Shown here piece by piece: positions 4,623-27,956 of a DNA stretch of 27,956 nucleotides; positions within the stretch are counted from its first letter, which is position 1; each line of letters begins with the position of its first letter. The stretch comes from a virus: the IMG/VR virus record IMGVR_UViG_3300043446_003243, positions 1-27,956 of that record; one strand, 5' to 3'. The notes beneath the pieces are model-generated. The model saw only the letters and a program-made list of their open reading frames with translations, did not search any database and was not told the DNA's origin. The position numbers and the translations under genes are program-made.

Positions 4623-5053
4623 GGCCGCGGGTCGTCCTGCGGCAGCCCCGGCCGACGGACCAGGGCTATGTGGCCAGCACCTGGGTTCATAGCTCGGCCG
4701 GCACCGGCGGGCGGCCTATCGGCCAGCGCCCGGTGGCCCGCCAGCTCGCCGACCTCGTCGACAAGATCATCAACCGGCGGGACACCCGGCTCGTCATCGC
4801 CGCGTCGTCCGTCGACCTGGACCACGTCATCGGCTGGCTCGCCCACGTCCACCCGTCGCCGGTGCCCTGCGTCCACTACGCCTACGTCCGCTCGGCCGAC
4901 CGCCGACGCGGCATCGCCAGCCGGATGCTTGAGCACGCCGGCGTCGCCCGCGACCGGGCTGCCGTCTGGACCTGCGAGGGGCCGTCCCTCGCCCACCTCG
5001 CCGCGCGCTACCCGGCCGCGGTCCACCTGCCACTCACGGAGTTCCTCGCATGA
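4619..5053 (+). CDS. GNAT-family N-acetyltransferase
   Basis: This 144-aa protein begins at GTG in a GTGA overlap with the preceding stop. The central part VHYAYVRSADRRRGIASRML matches GNAT motif A: a beta-strand, then the acetyl-CoA pyrophosphate-binding loop R-x-x-G-x-A (R95, G98, A100) and a helix. The preceding strands (VIAASSV, then VIGWLAHV) and the overall size are typical. GNAT enzymes move an acetyl group from acetyl-CoA to an amine; the substrate here cannot be deduced. The stop overlaps the ATG of the GroES-like gene. In phages, acetyltransferases can modify host proteins or protect phage components. Which of these applies here is unknown. Confidence 0.75.
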   Translation: MRPRVVLRQPRPTDQGYVASTWVHSSAGTGGRPIGQRPVARQLADLVDKIINRRDTRLVIAASSVDLDHVIGWLAHVHPSPVPCVHYAYVRSADRRRGIASRMLEHAGVARDRAAVWTCEGPSLAHLAARYPAAVHLPLTEFLA

Positions 5054-5397
5054 GCATCGAGCCAATCGGTAGCCGCGTCCTGGTACGGGTCGTCGGCGAG
5101 TCCAACCGCACCCGCGGCGGCCTGGTCATCCCGGAGATGGCCCTCGACAACACGCCGTGGCTACGCGGCGAGGTCGTCGCCGCCGGCCCCGGCAGCTACA
5201 GCGCCGAAGGCCGCTTCATCCCCATCACGGTCGGCGTCGGCGACGTCGTCGTGTTCTTCCGCAGCCAGGACGGCCGCCAGATTGTCGTCCCCGGCGAGGA
5301 CGGCGAGGACCTCCTGCTCATCCAAGAGGGCTACATCTGCGGCAAGGTCGTCGGCAAGCCGGAGTCCCCCATCGTCACGCTCGGGGTGTCCCCGTGA
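5050..5397 (+). CDS. GroES-like co-chaperonin
   Basis: This 115-aa protein matches the Cpn10/GroES pattern along most of its length. It opens with IEPIGSRVLVRV, then carries a flexible segment with GGLVIP (L25-V26-I27 in the place of the hydrophobic tripeptide that contacts GroEL). It continues with GEVVAAGPG, a loop, VGVGDVVVF, and EDLLLIQEGYICGKVV as the closing strands. It is about 20 residues longer than E. coli GroES because of a longer loop near residues 47-60 and a C-terminal tail. No GroEL is visible, so it would have to work with the host chaperonin, like T4 gp31. The likely client is the phage capsid protein, which is an inference. Confidence 0.88.
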   Translation: MSIEPIGSRVLVRVVGESNRTRGGLVIPEMALDNTPWLRGEVVAAGPGSYSAEGRFIPITVGVGDVVVFFRSQDGRQIVVPGEDGEDLLLIQEGYICGKVVGKPESPIVTLGVSP

Positions 5398-7608: not shown

Positions 7609-9567
7609 GTGGCACGCGCGCGGCGTGACAGCGCCGAGCAGGCCCCAGAGACCTCGACCCGTTGGTGGTCGAGCACTGGCACCGGCCAGACGAACGACCT
7701 GTGGGGTTGGGTCGACCGGATGCGGACTCGCCAGCGTCTGACGTCGGGCCGCGACCTCATCCACGAGGCGATCTACGAGGGCCGGCCCATCGCCTCCGGC
7801 CAGGACGTCACCAGCATCGAGATGATGCGCCGCCAGCAGATGGCGACGGCGAACCTGAACATCACGCGGTCGATGGTCGACACCGTGGTGGCCCGCCTCG
7901 GTCGCCGCCGGCCGATGCCCGTCATCAGCGCCGACGACGCCGAGTACAGCGAGAAGCTCTACGCCAAGCGCGCCTCGCGCGTCATGCGCCGCAAGCTGTC
8001 CACGCCGACCTTTGAGCGGCTGTCGCCGACAATCCTGCGGGACGCCGTCGTCCGCGGCACCGGCGTCGTGCGCGTGTTCCCTCGGCGCGGCGACGTCCAC
8101 TACGCCCGCGTCCCCCGCCACGAGCTCGTGGTCGACCCCCAGGACGCTCGCTACTGCGCCCCGCGAGTCATCGCCCACGCCCGGCTCGTGCCGCGGGAGA
8201 TCGTGCTCCAGCTCTACCCCGACCGCGCCAGCGACATCCGCCAGGCGAGCCGCGGCACCCGCGACGAGTGGGAGCCGTACGGCTGGGACACGTCCAAGGA
8301 CGACGACCAGATCGAAATGGTCGAGGCGTGGCACCTGCCGTCGACCGTCGGCGCCGAGGACGGCCGCTACGTCTGCGCCATCCGCACCGGCATCCCCCTC
8401 GAGTCGTGCGAGTGGGAGCGCCCGCGGTTCCCGTTCGCGTTCCTGCACTGGTCGCCGCCGATGCGCGGGTTCTGGGGCCAGGGGCTGGTCGAGGACCTCG
8501 CCGGCATCCAGAGCAAGGTCAACAGCCTCGCCCGCGACGCCCAAGAGGCGTTCCGGCTGGCCAGCGCCCTCAAGGTGTTCGTCCCCCGCTCGTCGAACGT
8601 CGACAAGAACCACCTCAGGGCCAAGGACCCCGCCGTCATCGAGTACGACGGCAACCCGCCGCAGTTCATCGCGCCCAACCCGGCGAGCGAGCAGCAGCTC
8701 CAGTTCCTACGCTGGCTCATCCAGCAAGCCTACGAGATCAGCGGCATCAGCCAGGCCGCGGCGCAGTCGCGCAACCCGCTCGGCCCCAACGCCAGCGGCA
8801 AGGCCCTGGACACGATGTACGACATGGAGAGCGACCGCTTCTCCCACGTCGAGATGCAGTACGCCCAGTTCCGTTGCGACGTTGGCCAGCTCACGCTCGA
8901 CCTGGCGCAAGACCTGACCAAGCCGGACGAGGACGACGACGACGACGACAACGCGCCGCTCGCGCCGTGGATCAAGGCGATCAAGTGGCCCAAGTTCGAC
9001 GTCGACGGCGGCAGCTACCACCTCGTCCTCGAGCCTATCAACTTCCTGCCCGAGACCCGGGCCGGCAAGCTCGACACCGTGGCCGACATGGCCAAGGCCG
9101 GCGTCATCGCGGACCCGATGGTCGCCGCGTCCCTGTTCGATGAGCCCGACATCGCCCGCGCCAACCGCGCCGAGCTCGGTCCGTATCGCTACCTCGAGAG
9201 CATCATGGAGAAGCTGGCCGACACGTCGGTCCCGCTCGAGGACTGCGTCCCGACGCCCCAGATGAACCTGTCCCTGGCCAAGCGGATGGCGCTCGGCGAG
9301 CACGGCAACGCGGCGGCCGAGGGCGCCGATGACGTGCTCCTGGGACGCTACCGCTGGTTCCTCCAGATGCTCGACGGCGAGGAGCAGCAGCTCCAGCCGC
9401 CGCCCGCTCCCCCGGGACCGCCTGGTCCGCAGCAGCCAGGCCCGGCCCCGTCCATGCCCGGCGCCCCGCCGCCGATGCCCCCGATGCCCGGTAACGGCAT
9501 GGGCGGGCTCGACGCGCAGGCCGCCGCCGGGATGCCCGTCCCCATGCTCGCCCCAGGAGTCTCGTGA
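7609..9567 (+). CDS. Portal protein
   Basis: This 652-aa protein has the character of a podovirus-type portal, the dodecameric ring at the capsid vertex through which DNA passes. The N-terminal half (residues about 50-260) is the mixed alpha/beta wing, with the stretch ANLNITRSMVDTVVARLGR, followed by VRGTGVVRVF and HELVVDP strand segments. The centre carries the stem helices, with GQGLVEDLAGIQSKVNSLAR and a QQAYEISGIS segment typical of portals. A poly-Asp run (about residues 440-449) and a long Pro/Gly/Met-rich C-terminal tail (about 594-652) are unusual. The GTG start has a GAGGGG ribosome-binding site. The stop overlaps the scaffold-like gene as GTGA, and it follows TerL, as expected. Confidence 0.85.
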   Translation: MARARRDSAEQAPETSTRWWSSTGTGQTNDLWGWVDRMRTRQRLTSGRDLIHEAIYEGRPIASGQDVTSIEMMRRQQMATANLNITRSMVDTVVARLGRRRPMPVISADDAEYSEKLYAKRASRVMRRKLSTPTFERLSPTILRDAVVRGTGVVRVFPRRGDVHYARVPRHELVVDPQDARYCAPRVIAHARLVPREIVLQLYPDRASDIRQASRGTRDEWEPYGWDTSKDDDQIEMVEAWHLPSTVGAEDGRYVCAIRTGIPLESCEWERPRFPFAFLHWSPPMRGFWGQGLVEDLAGIQSKVNSLARDAQEAFRLASALKVFVPRSSNVDKNHLRAKDPAVIEYDGNPPQFIAPNPASEQQLQFLRWLIQQAYEISGISQAAAQSRNPLGPNASGKALDTMYDMESDRFSHVEMQYAQFRCDVGQLTLDLAQDLTKPDEDDDDDDNAPLAPWIKAIKWPKFDVDGGSYHLVLEPINFLPETRAGKLDTVADMAKAGVIADPMVAASLFDEPDIARANRAELGPYRYLESIMEKLADTSVPLEDCVPTPQMNLSLAKRMALGEHGNAAAEGADDVLLGRYRWFLQMLDGEEQQLQPPPAPPGPPGPQQPGPAPSMPGAPPPMPPMPGNGMGGLDAQAAAGMPVPMLAPGVS

Positions 9568-10619
9568 GCGAAGAATTCGTCCCGGCCGTCTCCGACGTGG
9601 CCACCCAGACCGACGCCGTTGTCATCCCCGCCGACGAGGGCGGACCGCGTGTGCGCCGCGGCATGAGCGACGCCACCCGCGCCCTCATGGCCAAGGTGGT
9701 CGAGGCCCACAAGGGCAAGGACCTGGAGACCGACGAGCTCGTCCCGGCCCTGTCCGAGACCGAGTCCAAGCCGGCCGAGACCAAGCCCGCCGAGACCCCC
9801 GCCGCGGCTGCCCCGGCTGCGGCTGCCCCGGTCGCCGCGCAGGCGGTGGCGGACCATCGCATCGCCCAGCTCGAGCTGCGCGAGAAGGCGCTGGCCGAGC
9901 GTGAGGCAGCCCTCGAGGGACGCGCCAAGGGGATGCCCGACCGCGAGAAGTTCCTGGAGAAGCCGGGCGCGACGCTCAAGGCGTGGCTCCGCGACGTGGT
10001 CGGCGCCGAGTCCGACGCCGAGGCCCAGGACGCGCTGGCCGACCTCATCACCGAGCTCAGCGGCGAGGCCGGCGTCCCCATCGACCAGTCTATCCGCCTC
10101 CAGGTGGAGCAGCGCAAGGCGACGCGCTCCGTGAAGGCCCTGAAGGCCGACCTCGCCCGCCGCGAGTCCGAGGCGGCCGAGCGGGCCAAGGCGGCCGAGC
10201 GCGACCGCCAGGAGCAGAACGCCGTGGCCACGCTGCGGCAGGTGCTGTCCACGCCGGAGCACCAGGCGAAGTGGCCCACCCTCTCCGCTGAGGACGCGCC
10301 CCACGACCTCGTGTGGTCCGTCATCAAGGCGAGGTTCGCCAAGGATGGCGTTGCGCCGTCGTGGGACCAGGCTGCGCAGGAGGCGGAGGACTACCTCGCC
10401 GCCCAGGCGGAAGCCTACGTCGCCAAGCGAAAGCACATCGTGTCCAAGCTCAACCCCGCACCGGCAGCCAAGGCCGTCCCCCAGAACGCTCCCCAGAAGC
10501 CCCGAGCCGAGACGACTACAGCGACCGCGACGCCGGCCCCCTCATCCGAGGAGCCGATGTCACGCGAGGAGCGCCGACGCAAGAGCCTGGCGGCTCTCGT
10601 CGGCAAGTTCGCCCAGTAG
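9564..10619 (+). CDS. Scaffold-like capsid assembly protein
   Basis: This 351-aa acidic, Ala-, Glu- and Lys-rich protein sits between the portal and the major capsid gene, the usual place of the scaffolding protein. An N-terminal disordered segment is followed by a Pro/Ala-rich stretch (residues about 66-95). A coiled-coil-forming helix comes next (about 95-120), then a second heptad-rich region (about 175-220) and a basic C-terminus that may contact the coat protein. No protease motif is visible. The GTG start is in a GTGA overlap with the portal gene. The function is inferred from position and composition; sequence families of scaffolds diverge too much to identify by eye. Confidence 0.7.
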   Translation: MSEEFVPAVSDVATQTDAVVIPADEGGPRVRRGMSDATRALMAKVVEAHKGKDLETDELVPALSETESKPAETKPAETPAAAAPAAAAPVAAQAVADHRIAQLELREKALAEREAALEGRAKGMPDREKFLEKPGATLKAWLRDVVGAESDAEAQDALADLITELSGEAGVPIDQSIRLQVEQRKATRSVKALKADLARRESEAAERAKAAERDRQEQNAVATLRQVLSTPEHQAKWPTLSAEDAPHDLVWSVIKARFAKDGVAPSWDQAAQEAEDYLAAQAEAYVAKRKHIVSKLNPAPAAKAVPQNAPQKPRAETTTATATPAPSSEEPMSREERRRKSLAALVGKFAQ

Positions 10620-25530: not shown

Positions 25531-26331
25531 ATGATCGGCCCGCGCGTCGGAGCCAAGGTCGGCCCCCGCGTCGGGCCTGCCGTCGGCCCCGCTGCCGACG
25601 AAGTCTCGGCTGGCGTCGCCATCACGAAAGACGCCACCAGCAACATCTACATCCCGCAGAACGCATCCGAGTGGACGGCGCTGATGGCCCTCGCCGGTTT
25701 GGCGACCGGTGGCCCGTCCGCCGTCTACACGTTCCAGGACGCCAGCGGCAACCCGGTGGACTCCGTCGGTGGCTTCACCCTCACTGCGGCCGGCACCGGC
25801 ATCAGCTACCAGAACGCCGTCACCGGCTGGAGCAGCAAGGCCATCAACACGACGGCGGCGGGCACCGGCTCGCTGACCGCGACCGCCGCTGGCCTACCCG
25901 ACCCCTCGACGACGTCGGTGATGGTCCTCAGCTACGTCAACATCACCTCGTCGGTGCTCGCCGGCATCCACGGTTACGGCGCGCTCTCCACCCGACAGGC
26001 GATGGAGGCCACCGCCACCCCTCGCCTGCAAGCGGTCTCGGGCGCGAACCTCGCGGGCGGCACCAACTCGCCCATCAACCAGGTCCGCCCACTGGTGACC
26101 CGCTACAACTTCACCGCATCGACGGCGCTGGGTGCGAGCGACCAAGAGAAGCTCGTGCCCACGTTCACGGCGACGACGACCAAGAACCTCGTCTACGGCA
26201 ACTTCGGACGAGCCTGCGCCGCGGCGCAGTACCTCTATTCGGCGGTGTTCTTCGGCCCCGCCGCAGAGCAGACCGACGCGCAGCTCAAGACGATGCTGCA
26301 AACCCTCGGATGGAGCATCCCGTGGACCTAG
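25531..26331 (+). CDS. Jelly-roll (LamG-like) structural protein with GPxVG repeat N-terminus
   Basis: This 266-aa protein begins with an unusual repeat (GPRVGAKVGPRVGPAVGPA) in place of a signal peptide. It continues into a domain of alternating strands (about residues 50-266) with AVYTFQDASGN, STTSVMVLSYVNI and LVYGNFGR, closing with LKTMLQTLGWSIPW. That pattern matches concanavalin/LamG-type jelly-roll modules in phage receptor-binding and structural proteins. AAGG about 8 bases upstream may serve the ATG. The gene lies between the ejection proteins and the lysis genes, away from the other fibres. Carbohydrate binding is possible but not shown. Confidence 0.65.
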   Translation: MIGPRVGAKVGPRVGPAVGPAADEVSAGVAITKDATSNIYIPQNASEWTALMALAGLATGGPSAVYTFQDASGNPVDSVGGFTLTAAGTGISYQNAVTGWSSKAINTTAAGTGSLTATAAGLPDPSTTSVMVLSYVNITSSVLAGIHGYGALSTRQAMEATATPRLQAVSGANLAGGTNSPINQVRPLVTRYNFTASTALGASDQEKLVPTFTATTTKNLVYGNFGRACAAAQYLYSAVFFGPAAEQTDAQLKTMLQTLGWSIPWT

Positions 26332-26570
26332 ACCTCGCCAAGTTCATCGAGCACGAGGGCGTCCTCGGCGCCGCCCTGGTCGGGCTCGGCGTCGTGGTCT
26401 GGCGCATCGGGCTGCGGCTCACCGCCGCAATCGACAAGGCCGGCGACCGCTTTGAGCACAACACCGACCGCCTGTTGGACCGGCACGCCGAGACCCACGA
26501 GGCCGTCTCCCGCGTCGAGGCCAAGATCGACTCCATGCGCAACCCCAGCAAGAACGGAGCGACCCCATGA
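26322..26570 (+). CDS. Small membrane protein, holin or BhlA/UviB-like candidate
   Basis: The GTG at 26322 has GGAG six bases upstream (26312-26315); an in-frame ATG at 26310 is the alternative. The 82-aa product has one N-terminal membrane segment (about residues 12-29, GVLGAALVGLGVVVWRIG) followed by a charged coiled-coil tail with regularly spaced Arg, Glu and His. This topology resembles the BhlA/UviB-type lysis-associated proteins, though I cannot confirm homology. The stop overlaps the next gene (ATGA), and all following genes look like lysis functions. Confidence 0.6.
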   Translation: MDLDLAKFIEHEGVLGAALVGLGVVVWRIGLRLTAAIDKAGDRFEHNTDRLLDRHAETHEAVSRVEAKIDSMRNPSKNGATP

Positions 26571-26770
26571 GCGACGACACCACCCCCCACAAGCCCGGCT
26601 ACAAAACCACCGAGTTCTGGCTGTCCGTCGCGTCGAGCGTCCTGGGCGCCCTGTTCGCCAGCGGCATCATCGCGGACGGCTCGACCGCCGCGAAGATCGC
26701 CGGCCTGGCCGCCGCGGCCCTCGGCGCCGCCGGCTACTCGGTCTCGCGCGCGATGGTCAAGGCGGCGTGA
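26567..26770 (+). CDS. Putative holin, 67 aa
   Basis: The ATG lies in an ATGA overlap with the previous gene. The N-terminus is polar with KPGYKTTEFWL, a motif familiar from small phage holins. Two hydrophobic segments follow (about residues 19-34 and 40-58) and the C-terminus is basic (SRAMVKAA). The size, two-helix topology and place before the spanin and amidase genes fit a holin that would permeabilise the inner membrane. The signature motif is recalled from other phages. The family is not proven here. Confidence 0.7.
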   Translation: MSDDTTPHKPGYKTTEFWLSVASSVLGALFASGIIADGSTAAKIAGLAAAALGAAGYSVSRAMVKAA

Positions 26771-26835
26771 TCGTCGAGCTCCTGCGAACCGTGGCCGCGC
26801 TGGCACTCCTGGGGTGGCTGTGGTGGTGGCTGTAG
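26767..26835 (+). CDS. 22-aa Trp-rich membrane peptide
   Basis: A GTG in a GTGA overlap with the holin stop opens a 22-codon frame with a Leu/Ala membrane segment ending in GWLWWWL. AAGG (26759-26762) lies four bases upstream. It ends inside the first codons of the spanin gene. It could be a lysis regulator, a leader that couples spanin translation, or an untranslated accident of spacing. The length is too short for firm support. Confidence 0.35.
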   Translation: MIVELLRTVAALALLGWLWWWL

Positions 26836-27200
26836 CCATCGCCGCCGTCGTGGTCGTGAGCGGCGTGATGTACCTCGCCCAGCTCGCCGTCACCCGCGCC
26901 GACCGCGTCGGCTCGGCCACCGCCGCGACCTACGAGGCCCGGCTCTCGCTCGAGCGAGCCCGCGCCGACGGGCTCCAGGCCCTCGCCGAACAGGAGAAGC
27001 GACGTGCAGACGCCCTCGACGACTTGCTCGCCACGCTCGACCGCGGTGGCGACCCTGCTACTGCTCGCGAGCGCGTGCTGCAGCTCTGGCAGGTCCAGCG
27101 CGCCAACGCCGCAGCCGCCGCCAACGCTGCGCGAGCCCTGCCTGCGCCACCCGCCGCCGCCTCCCCCACCGGCGACAACCTCCTCCGTCCAGGTGAGTGA
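26814..27200 (+). CDS. Rz-like inner-membrane spanin (i-spanin)
   Basis: This 128-aa protein (GTG at 26814; GTG at 26820 possible) has an N-terminal membrane segment (about residues 2-20, a long run of Val, Ala and Ile) with no cleavage site. A long periplasmic helical region follows (about 30-110), with the heptad-like TYEARLSLERARADGLQAL and KRRADALDDLLATL, and a short Pro/Ala-rich end. This is the layout of i-spanins such as lambda Rz. The decisive context is a second reading frame (27004-27273) that begins inside it and encodes an Rz1-like lipoprotein. Together the pair would fuse inner and outer membranes at the end of lysis. Confidence 0.72.
   Translation: MAVVVAVAIAAVVVVSGVMYLAQLAVTRADRVGSATAATYEARLSLERARADGLQALAEQEKRRADALDDLLATLDRGGDPATARERVLQLWQVQRANAAAAANAARALPAPPAAASPTGDNLLRPGE
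26992..26996 (+). promoter_or_regulatory. Internal ribosome-binding site for the Rz1-like gene
   Basis: AGGAG lies inside the Rz-like coding sequence, seven bases before the GTG at 27004, which is in a different frame. A near-consensus site at the right spacing in the middle of another gene is good evidence that the nested frame is translated. Confidence 0.65.
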
Positions 27201-27273
27201 TCTGTGGTACCGCCTGGAGCAGCTCGAGCGATGGGCGATGGCGGCGTGGGCAGCGTGCGGGGGCGCGCGATGA
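27004..27273 (+). CDS. Rz1-like outer-membrane lipoprotein spanin (o-spanin)
   Basis: This 89-aa protein starts in another frame inside the Rz-like gene and runs 73 bases beyond it, the overlapped Rz/Rz1 architecture. It has a basic residue at R11, a hydrophobic core (about residues 13-22) and a lipobox-like LLASAC with C25 as the acylated cysteine; the -3 Ala is less usual than Leu. The mature part is Pro-rich, with one PPP run and a run of seven Pro, as in lambda Rz1, and ends with an amphipathic helix (LWYRLEQLERWAMAAW). Its stop overlaps the next gene as ATGA. It requires an outer membrane, so it supports a Gram-negative host. I am fairly sure of the assignment. Confidence 0.72.
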   Translation: MQTPSTTCSPRSTAVATLLLLASACCSSGRSSAPTPQPPPTLREPCLRHPPPPPPPATTSSVQVSDLWYRLEQLERWAMAAWAACGGAR

Positions 27274-27530
27274 AACGCCGACCCGCGTCGCCGCAGGACC
27301 GAGCCGTCGCCGCCCGCGTCGCCGCCGGTCGCCCGCCGTCCACCCCGACCCCGGGCTACGTGCTCGAGGCGCTCGCCGAGCTCGACGGCGACCCCGGTGA
27401 CCTGCTTGCCGAGTGGGAGGAGCGGGCCGCCGTCCGGCAGTACCTCGGCGAGATGCTCCGAGCGGACGCCGAGCGCGCCGCCCTTGGCGAGCTCATCGAC
27501 GCGCACGCAGCCCAGGGAGACCTGCCGTGA
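27270..27530 (+). CDS. Hypothetical protein, 86 aa, in the lysis cassette
   Basis: The ATG at 27270 is in an ATGA overlap with the Rz1-like stop, and the stop overlaps the amidase GTG. The N-terminus is basic and Arg/Pro-rich (residues 1-30); the rest is an acidic helical region with YVLEALAELDGD, LLAEWEERAAVRQYL and LIDAHAAQGDLP. No membrane segment or signal is visible. I do not recognise a family. Its position between spanin and endolysin genes suggests a role in, or translational coupling for, lysis, but nothing in the sequence proves it. Confidence 0.6.
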   Translation: MKRRPASPQDRAVAARVAAGRPPSTPTPGYVLEALAELDGDPGDLLAEWEERAAVRQYLGEMLRADAERAALGELIDAHAAQGDLP

Positions 27531-27956
27531 CCTGGGCCGACGGCTGGTACGCCCCCGCCCGGCGACGCCCGGCCCACCCGAGGCGCGTCGGCGGCGACAT
27601 CCGCCCCTTCGGGATCGTGGTCCACAGCACCGACTGCCCGCCCGAGGCGTGGCCCACGCTGATGCGCTCCTGGACCACGACGCCCGGCGCCGGCTCGTGC
27701 GCCCACTTCGCTATTGGCCGCAGCGAGGCCGACGGGCTGATCCAGCTCGTCCCCGTGACCCGCAACGCCAACCACGCCGGCGGCCCGAGCCACGGCGTCT
27801 GGCGCCGCGGCGGCTTCAGCGACCAGCACCCGAACCTCTGCTCGGTCGGCATCGAGCTCCACCTGGCCGGTGGCGTCCGGCTCCTGGACGGCGGCTGGCG
27901 GCTCTGGGAGGACGGCCACGCCGTCGGCGCCCCGCTGCCCGCTGCCGAGGTCAAGG
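27527..27956 (+). CDS. N-acetylmuramoyl-L-alanine amidase (endolysin), 3' end outside the window
   Basis: The GTG in a GTGA overlap opens an Amidase_2-type domain. This enzyme class cuts the amide bond between MurNAc and L-Ala of peptidoglycan using zinc. Visible features are IVVHSTDC with the first zinc ligand H33, then CAHFAIGR, and NANHAGG with H83, followed by SVGIELHLAG, a hallmark strand of the family. The third ligand would lie downstream of the window. No signal peptide is seen, so release probably depends on the holin genes upstream. The gene is cut at base 27956, so the C-terminal part, including any cell-wall-binding domain, is unknown. Confidence 0.85.
   Translation, partial: MTWADGWYAPARRRPAHPRRVGGDIRPFGIVVHSTDCPPEAWPTLMRSWTTTPGAGSCAHFAIGRSEADGLIQLVPVTRNANHAGGPSHGVWRRGGFSDQHPNLCSVGIELHLAGGVRLLDGGWRLWEDGHAVGAPLPAAEVK

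Follow-up and report, generated by a model that had tools for sequence, protein, structure and literature searches.

Do the overlapping reading frames at the right end of an uncultured viral record encode the two partners of a spanin, or does only one of them code for protein? The record, IMG/VR IMGVR_UViG_3300043446_003243, was analyzed as a whole and is called here the window: 27,956 bases with a G+C content of 71%, probably a phage genome fragment, whose gene content includes helicases, a GroES homologue, a terminase large subunit and a portal. The phage-borne GroES homologue (5050-5397; phrog_3188, E 4.9e-14) lies just 5' of the terminase. Records of three uncultured relatives, retrieved by a terminase search, measure 58-61 kb and, like the window, carry the large gene that lies beside the lysis cassette. 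An earlier note on this DNA had proposed an Rz/Rz1-type pair in two frames, a proposal that every testable sequence feature supports, as do other phage contigs in which the layout recurs at this point of the cassette. We consider, with a probability of about 0.9, that 26814-27200 and 27004-27273, both on the + strand, are the genes of a two-component spanin of the overlapped class, belonging to a tailed phage with a Gram-negative host; the product of the second would be lipidated and located in the outer membrane, and the two would act together in lysis.

The lysis cassette

The cassette lies on the + strand at the right end of the window, and four of its junctions are 4-base ATGA or GTGA overlaps. 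On the 3' side of the pair, 27527-27956 encodes a probable endolysin, an N-acetylmuramoyl-L-alanine amidase (Amidase_2) that is cut by the contig end and matches PF01510 above the cut-off (E 2.9e-6) and phrog_1794 (E 8.2e-7). Between the second frame and the amidase, an 86-residue ORF (27270-27530) shares 4-base overlaps with both; at its 5' junction, an ATGA contains its own start codon and the stop codon of 27004-27273. On the 5' side, 26567-26770 encodes a holin-like protein of the KPGYKTTEFWLS family, which we used as a marker of the cassette. Its matches to phrog_565 (E 0.044) and Phage_holin_10 (E 0.14) are below threshold, and its label as a holin is tentative. Membership of the pair in a lysis cassette is thus indicated by an amidase above the cut-off on one side and by a gene with weak holin matches only on the other. 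Holin and endolysin neighbors are usual for an overlapped two-component spanin and are not required.

Two further small genes belong to this region. Just 5' of the holin-like gene, 26328-26570 (+) encodes a small protein with an N-terminal membrane segment and a charged tail, possibly a second holin or an antiholin, for which the family matches are sub-threshold only (PHROGs holin, E 0.098; Rz-like spanin, E 0.15). A hydrophobic ORF of 22 residues (VIVELLRTVAALALLGWLWWWL; 26767-26835, +), read from the sequence, overlaps the stop of the holin-like gene through a GTGA, and its 3' end lies inside the start region of the first frame of the pair. It may serve in translational coupling to that frame or encode a tiny membrane peptide.

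Two frames with the features of an i-spanin and an o-spanin

The first frame (26814-27200) encodes 128 residues. The earlier note had described a membrane-anchored coiled-coil frame here. Its translation, a hydropathy filter and an AlphaFold prediction give one membrane helix at the N-terminus and, after it, a long helix in two parts, a predicted topology with one transmembrane domain and a periplasmic body. From the single sequence, AlphaFold placed helices at residues 2-76 and 81-108, separated by a turn at 77-80 and followed by a loose or disordered tail (mean pLDDT 78.5). Four GTG codons are candidate starts (26814, 26820, 26823 and 26826), and the one start signal is a weak GGGGTGG ahead of GTG 26826; the true start may be GTG 26820, 26823 or 26826.

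The second frame (27004-27273, 89 residues) lies in frame +1, starts within the first gene and runs 73 bases past its end, which is the geometry of the overlapped class. The AGGAG noticed earlier is present at 26992-26996, within the i-spanin gene, with a spacer of 7 bases to the GTG start at 27004. The product begins with a lipoprotein signal, read from the sequence, in which the claimed lipobox-like cysteine is Cys25 of LLLLASAC. The lipobox ASAC departs from the pattern [LVI][ASTVI][GAS]C by its alanine at position -3; the AWAC lipobox offers a parallel, being functional according to a published survey of spanins (PMC6139136). The Pro-rich body and C-terminal amphipathic helix, also claimed from the letters, were recovered by AlphaFold run on the single sequence, at low confidence (mean pLDDT 58.9), as a signal helix (10-27), an unstructured Pro-rich middle and a helix at 64-86.

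Phage lipoproteins with roles other than that of a spanin exist, and the second frame could accordingly be a real lipoprotein gene serving, for example, in superinfection exclusion, the first frame not being its spanin partner. We regard this as extremely unlikely, given that the partner it overlaps combines one membrane helix with a long helical rod, that the frame stands in a lysis cassette beside an amidase, and that it encodes a Pro-rich body with a C-terminal helix.

The second frame is not due to chance

In DNA of such a G+C content, open alternative frames are expected. We recoded the first gene under two null models of 20,000 trials each, using either the codon usage of the phage or a permutation of the synonymous codons already present in the gene. 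A +1 or +2 frame was open in 15,234 of 20,000 versions under the first model and in 19,188 of 20,000 under the second, so that at 71% G+C an open alternative frame alone means little. A lipoprotein signal was gained in only 1/20,000 versions (codon usage) and 12/20,000 (permutation), and the signal together with a Shine-Dalgarno-like site in 0/20,000 and 6/20,000, respectively. On both strands of the window, 27004-27273 is the only ORF with a Shine-Dalgarno site plus a lipoprotein signal by the criteria of this analysis, and the only pair returned by our pair finder is that of 26814-27200 and 27004-27273.

These counts bear on the reading in which 26814-27200 is the sole gene, encoding a membrane protein and perhaps a holin partner, and the second frame exists by chance, as a product of high G+C. 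That reading draws on the abundance of open frames among the recoded versions and on the fact that searches of the family libraries and fetched loci gave no homologue for the second frame. It is very unlikely in view of the rarity of a signal with a ribosome-binding site among the same versions, the uniqueness of that signal in the window, the ATGA junction that links the second frame with the next ORF, and the other contigs in which the layout occupies the corresponding place in the cassette. The second frame is not a chance feature.

A known kind of system without a catalogued family

Profile searches of PHROGs, Pfam and NCBIfam gave no significant match for either protein, to a catalogued Rz/Rz1 family or otherwise, and for this reason the identification is based on layout, signals and position rather than on homology. 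Neither did the i-spanin have a significant match in 50,697 phage records or in viral contigs. When both frames were compared by local tblastn with 117 fetched loci, without a low-complexity filter, the result was short Pro- and Ala-rich matches that we did not take as homology; the best E among the matches listed was 8.5e-6 for the second frame and 7.8e-4 for the first. The search found no relative that carried the cassette and was close enough for a selection test on the second frame. Judged by its sequence features, the pair is of a known kind, the Rz/Rz1 type, here represented by sequences outside the catalogued families. Such a lack of homologues is ordinary, since in the survey singletons account for more than 40% of spanin families, and annotation had missed 196 o-spanins (PMC6139136).

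The same source defines the overlapped class by an o-spanin whose start lies within the i-spanin gene, in another frame, and whose end lies past it, and assigns 228 of 528 two-component spanins to this class (PMC6139136). The o-spanin of the window starts at 0.49 of the i-spanin length; in the survey, embedded o-spanins start mostly at 0.4-0.5 (PMC6139136). The first product contains no cysteine, while the second has, besides Cys25, putatively periplasmic Cys26, 46 and 85, a pattern within the surveyed range, in which at least one partner has a periplasmic cysteine in 507/528 systems (PMC6139136). In published descriptions, lambda Rz is organized as TMD-CC1-linker-CC2-tail and its Rz1 partner is Pro-rich (PMC5295617), and the o-spanin PseT.2 of T4 has a C-terminal helix (PMC6139136). 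The helices predicted here match the lambda Rz plan combined with a Pro-rich o-spanin that ends in a PseT.2-like helix.

By this class definition (PMC6139136), the pair resembles LysB/LysC of P2, whose o-spanin likewise starts in frame +1 within its partner and extends past it. It differs from LysB/LysC in that none of the Rz-like families of the searched libraries matches it significantly. The order of genes in the P2 lysis cassette is also different from that of the window. With the embedded Rz/Rz1 of lambda, the pair shares the +1 frame, an N-terminal TMD followed by two helices, and a Pro-rich lipoprotein; in contrast, the o-spanin frame of the window ends 73 bases past the i-spanin frame, a C-terminal helix is predicted for its product, and the i-spanin is without cysteine.

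Recurrence after the holin-like gene

Relatives of the KPGYKTTEFWLS holin-like protein number 238 in viral contigs; the 50,697 phage records contain none. From the best 80 of these 238, we retained the 78 loci with at least 600 bases of downstream sequence, leaving out L063 and L110, and counted a pair when it started between -150 and +500 bases from the end of the holin-like match. An overlapped pair of a membrane protein and a lipoprotein follows the holin-like homologue in 24/78 of these uncultured phage loci, always in frame +1, while the same finder returned 0 pairs in the remaining 1,231,580 bases of the loci, both strands included. A first, stricter finder had missed the pair of the window, and its thresholds were loosened before these counts; the window pair is therefore not an independent test of the finder, and the background count is. 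The finder undercounts, pairs visible by eye in L039, L042, L045 and L050 having been missed, and the partner that it named in L099 and L108 is doubtful. Because near duplicates occur (e.g. L037/L038, L060/L071 and L062/L066), the 24 of 78 are loci and not independent lineages.

By eye, the pairs of the 24 loci fall into several types that seem unrelated. Position and layout recur across loci, which is evidence of a shared arrangement rather than of shared descent. The nearest pair in layout is that of L037/L038, directly after the holin-like homologue, with a TMD followed by a long charged, likely helical protein and, in frame +1, a Pro-rich lipoprotein whose C-terminal part looks helical by eye and ends near a cysteine. 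Its proteins are longer than those of the window, and pairwise comparison of the two pairs was not significant (E 2.0 and 0.39). Among viral contigs, a search with the i-spanin of L037 recovered nothing beyond the two contigs from which this protein comes. A three-sequence profile built from the lipoproteins of the window, L037 and L120 was run on 13,997 ORFs; apart from the three members and duplicates of them, nothing exceeded the threshold, and we therefore claim no shared lipoprotein family.

In L120, an Rz1-like Pro-rich lipoprotein (9279-9584) overlaps a charged frame, and its cysteine layout resembles that of the window; the contig also carries a relative of the 266-residue gene of the window. 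Bacterial genomes, among them MAGs of Verrucomicrobiales and Deltaproteobacteria, yielded 13 further loci of the KPGYKTTEFWLS family. One of these loci (L124) has a pair, and two (L125 and L132) have less than 600 bases downstream.

Holin-lipoprotein fusions in the same slot

Two relatives, G005 and G008, share the neighboring genes of the window, and in their slot the holin-like protein is extended in frame by a lipoprotein-like part; in G008, an ORF recognized by eye as amidase-like comes next. The same finder returned no overlapped pair in any fetched piece of G005, G007, G008 or G011. This absence, like the lack of homologues and the atypical lipobox, weighs against the spanin reading of the window pair. 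Since the relatives with shared neighbors carry a fusion and no pair, the pair of the window would be a replacement within its lineage.

Among KPGYKTTEFWL holin-like proteins, some continue in frame into a long C-terminal extension with a lipobox-like cysteine after a hydrophobic stretch. Such an extension is present in 8/75 distinct ORFs with the motif, 4 recognized by a lipobox filter and 4 by eye. The fusions are those of L033 (5471-6079, - strand), L034 (- strand), L117 (8524-9093), L126, L049, L075, L085 and L090, and also of L079 and L102. L119 has a related lipoprotein domain (E 9e-6 to L033) that is not fused to the holin-like protein. An internal start was rejected as a general explanation of the fusions: the VK codon is GTG in L117, L126, L079 and L102 but GTC in L033 and L034. 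The L033 row of one alignment stood in a wrong frame and was left aside. The slot after the KPGYKTTEFWLS gene might be an exchange site for outer-membrane disruption modules of unrelated origin, comprising several kinds of overlapped pair and, in relatives of this phage, the holin-lipoprotein fusion, an idea that we put forward as speculative and rather unlikely.

Proposed mechanism and significance

For the spanin pair of the window, the first product would be held by its N-terminal helix in the inner membrane, with its helical rod reaching into the periplasm. After export and lipidation on Cys25, the second would be anchored in the outer membrane, where a flexible Pro-rich stretch would lead to a C-terminal helix that may meet the C-terminal helix of the i-spanin and form a complex with it. 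Once a holin had opened the inner membrane and the amidase had cut the wall, this complex would collapse, the two membranes would fuse and the virions would be released. We infer the bridging and fusion of membranes from spanin systems of the lambda and T4 types, as described in PMC5295617 and PMC6139136. The presence of a spanin pair would in turn imply an outer membrane in the host.

An uncultured phage lineage thus gains a plausible lysis cassette, and the pair adds a case of an o-spanin frame of the kind that ordinary gene calling tends to miss. The holin-like marker provides a handle for finding overlapped spanins that are invisible to homology searches. If the exchange-site idea were true, the in-frame holin-lipoprotein fusion would be a type of spanin outside the embedded, overlapped, separated and unimolecular classes.
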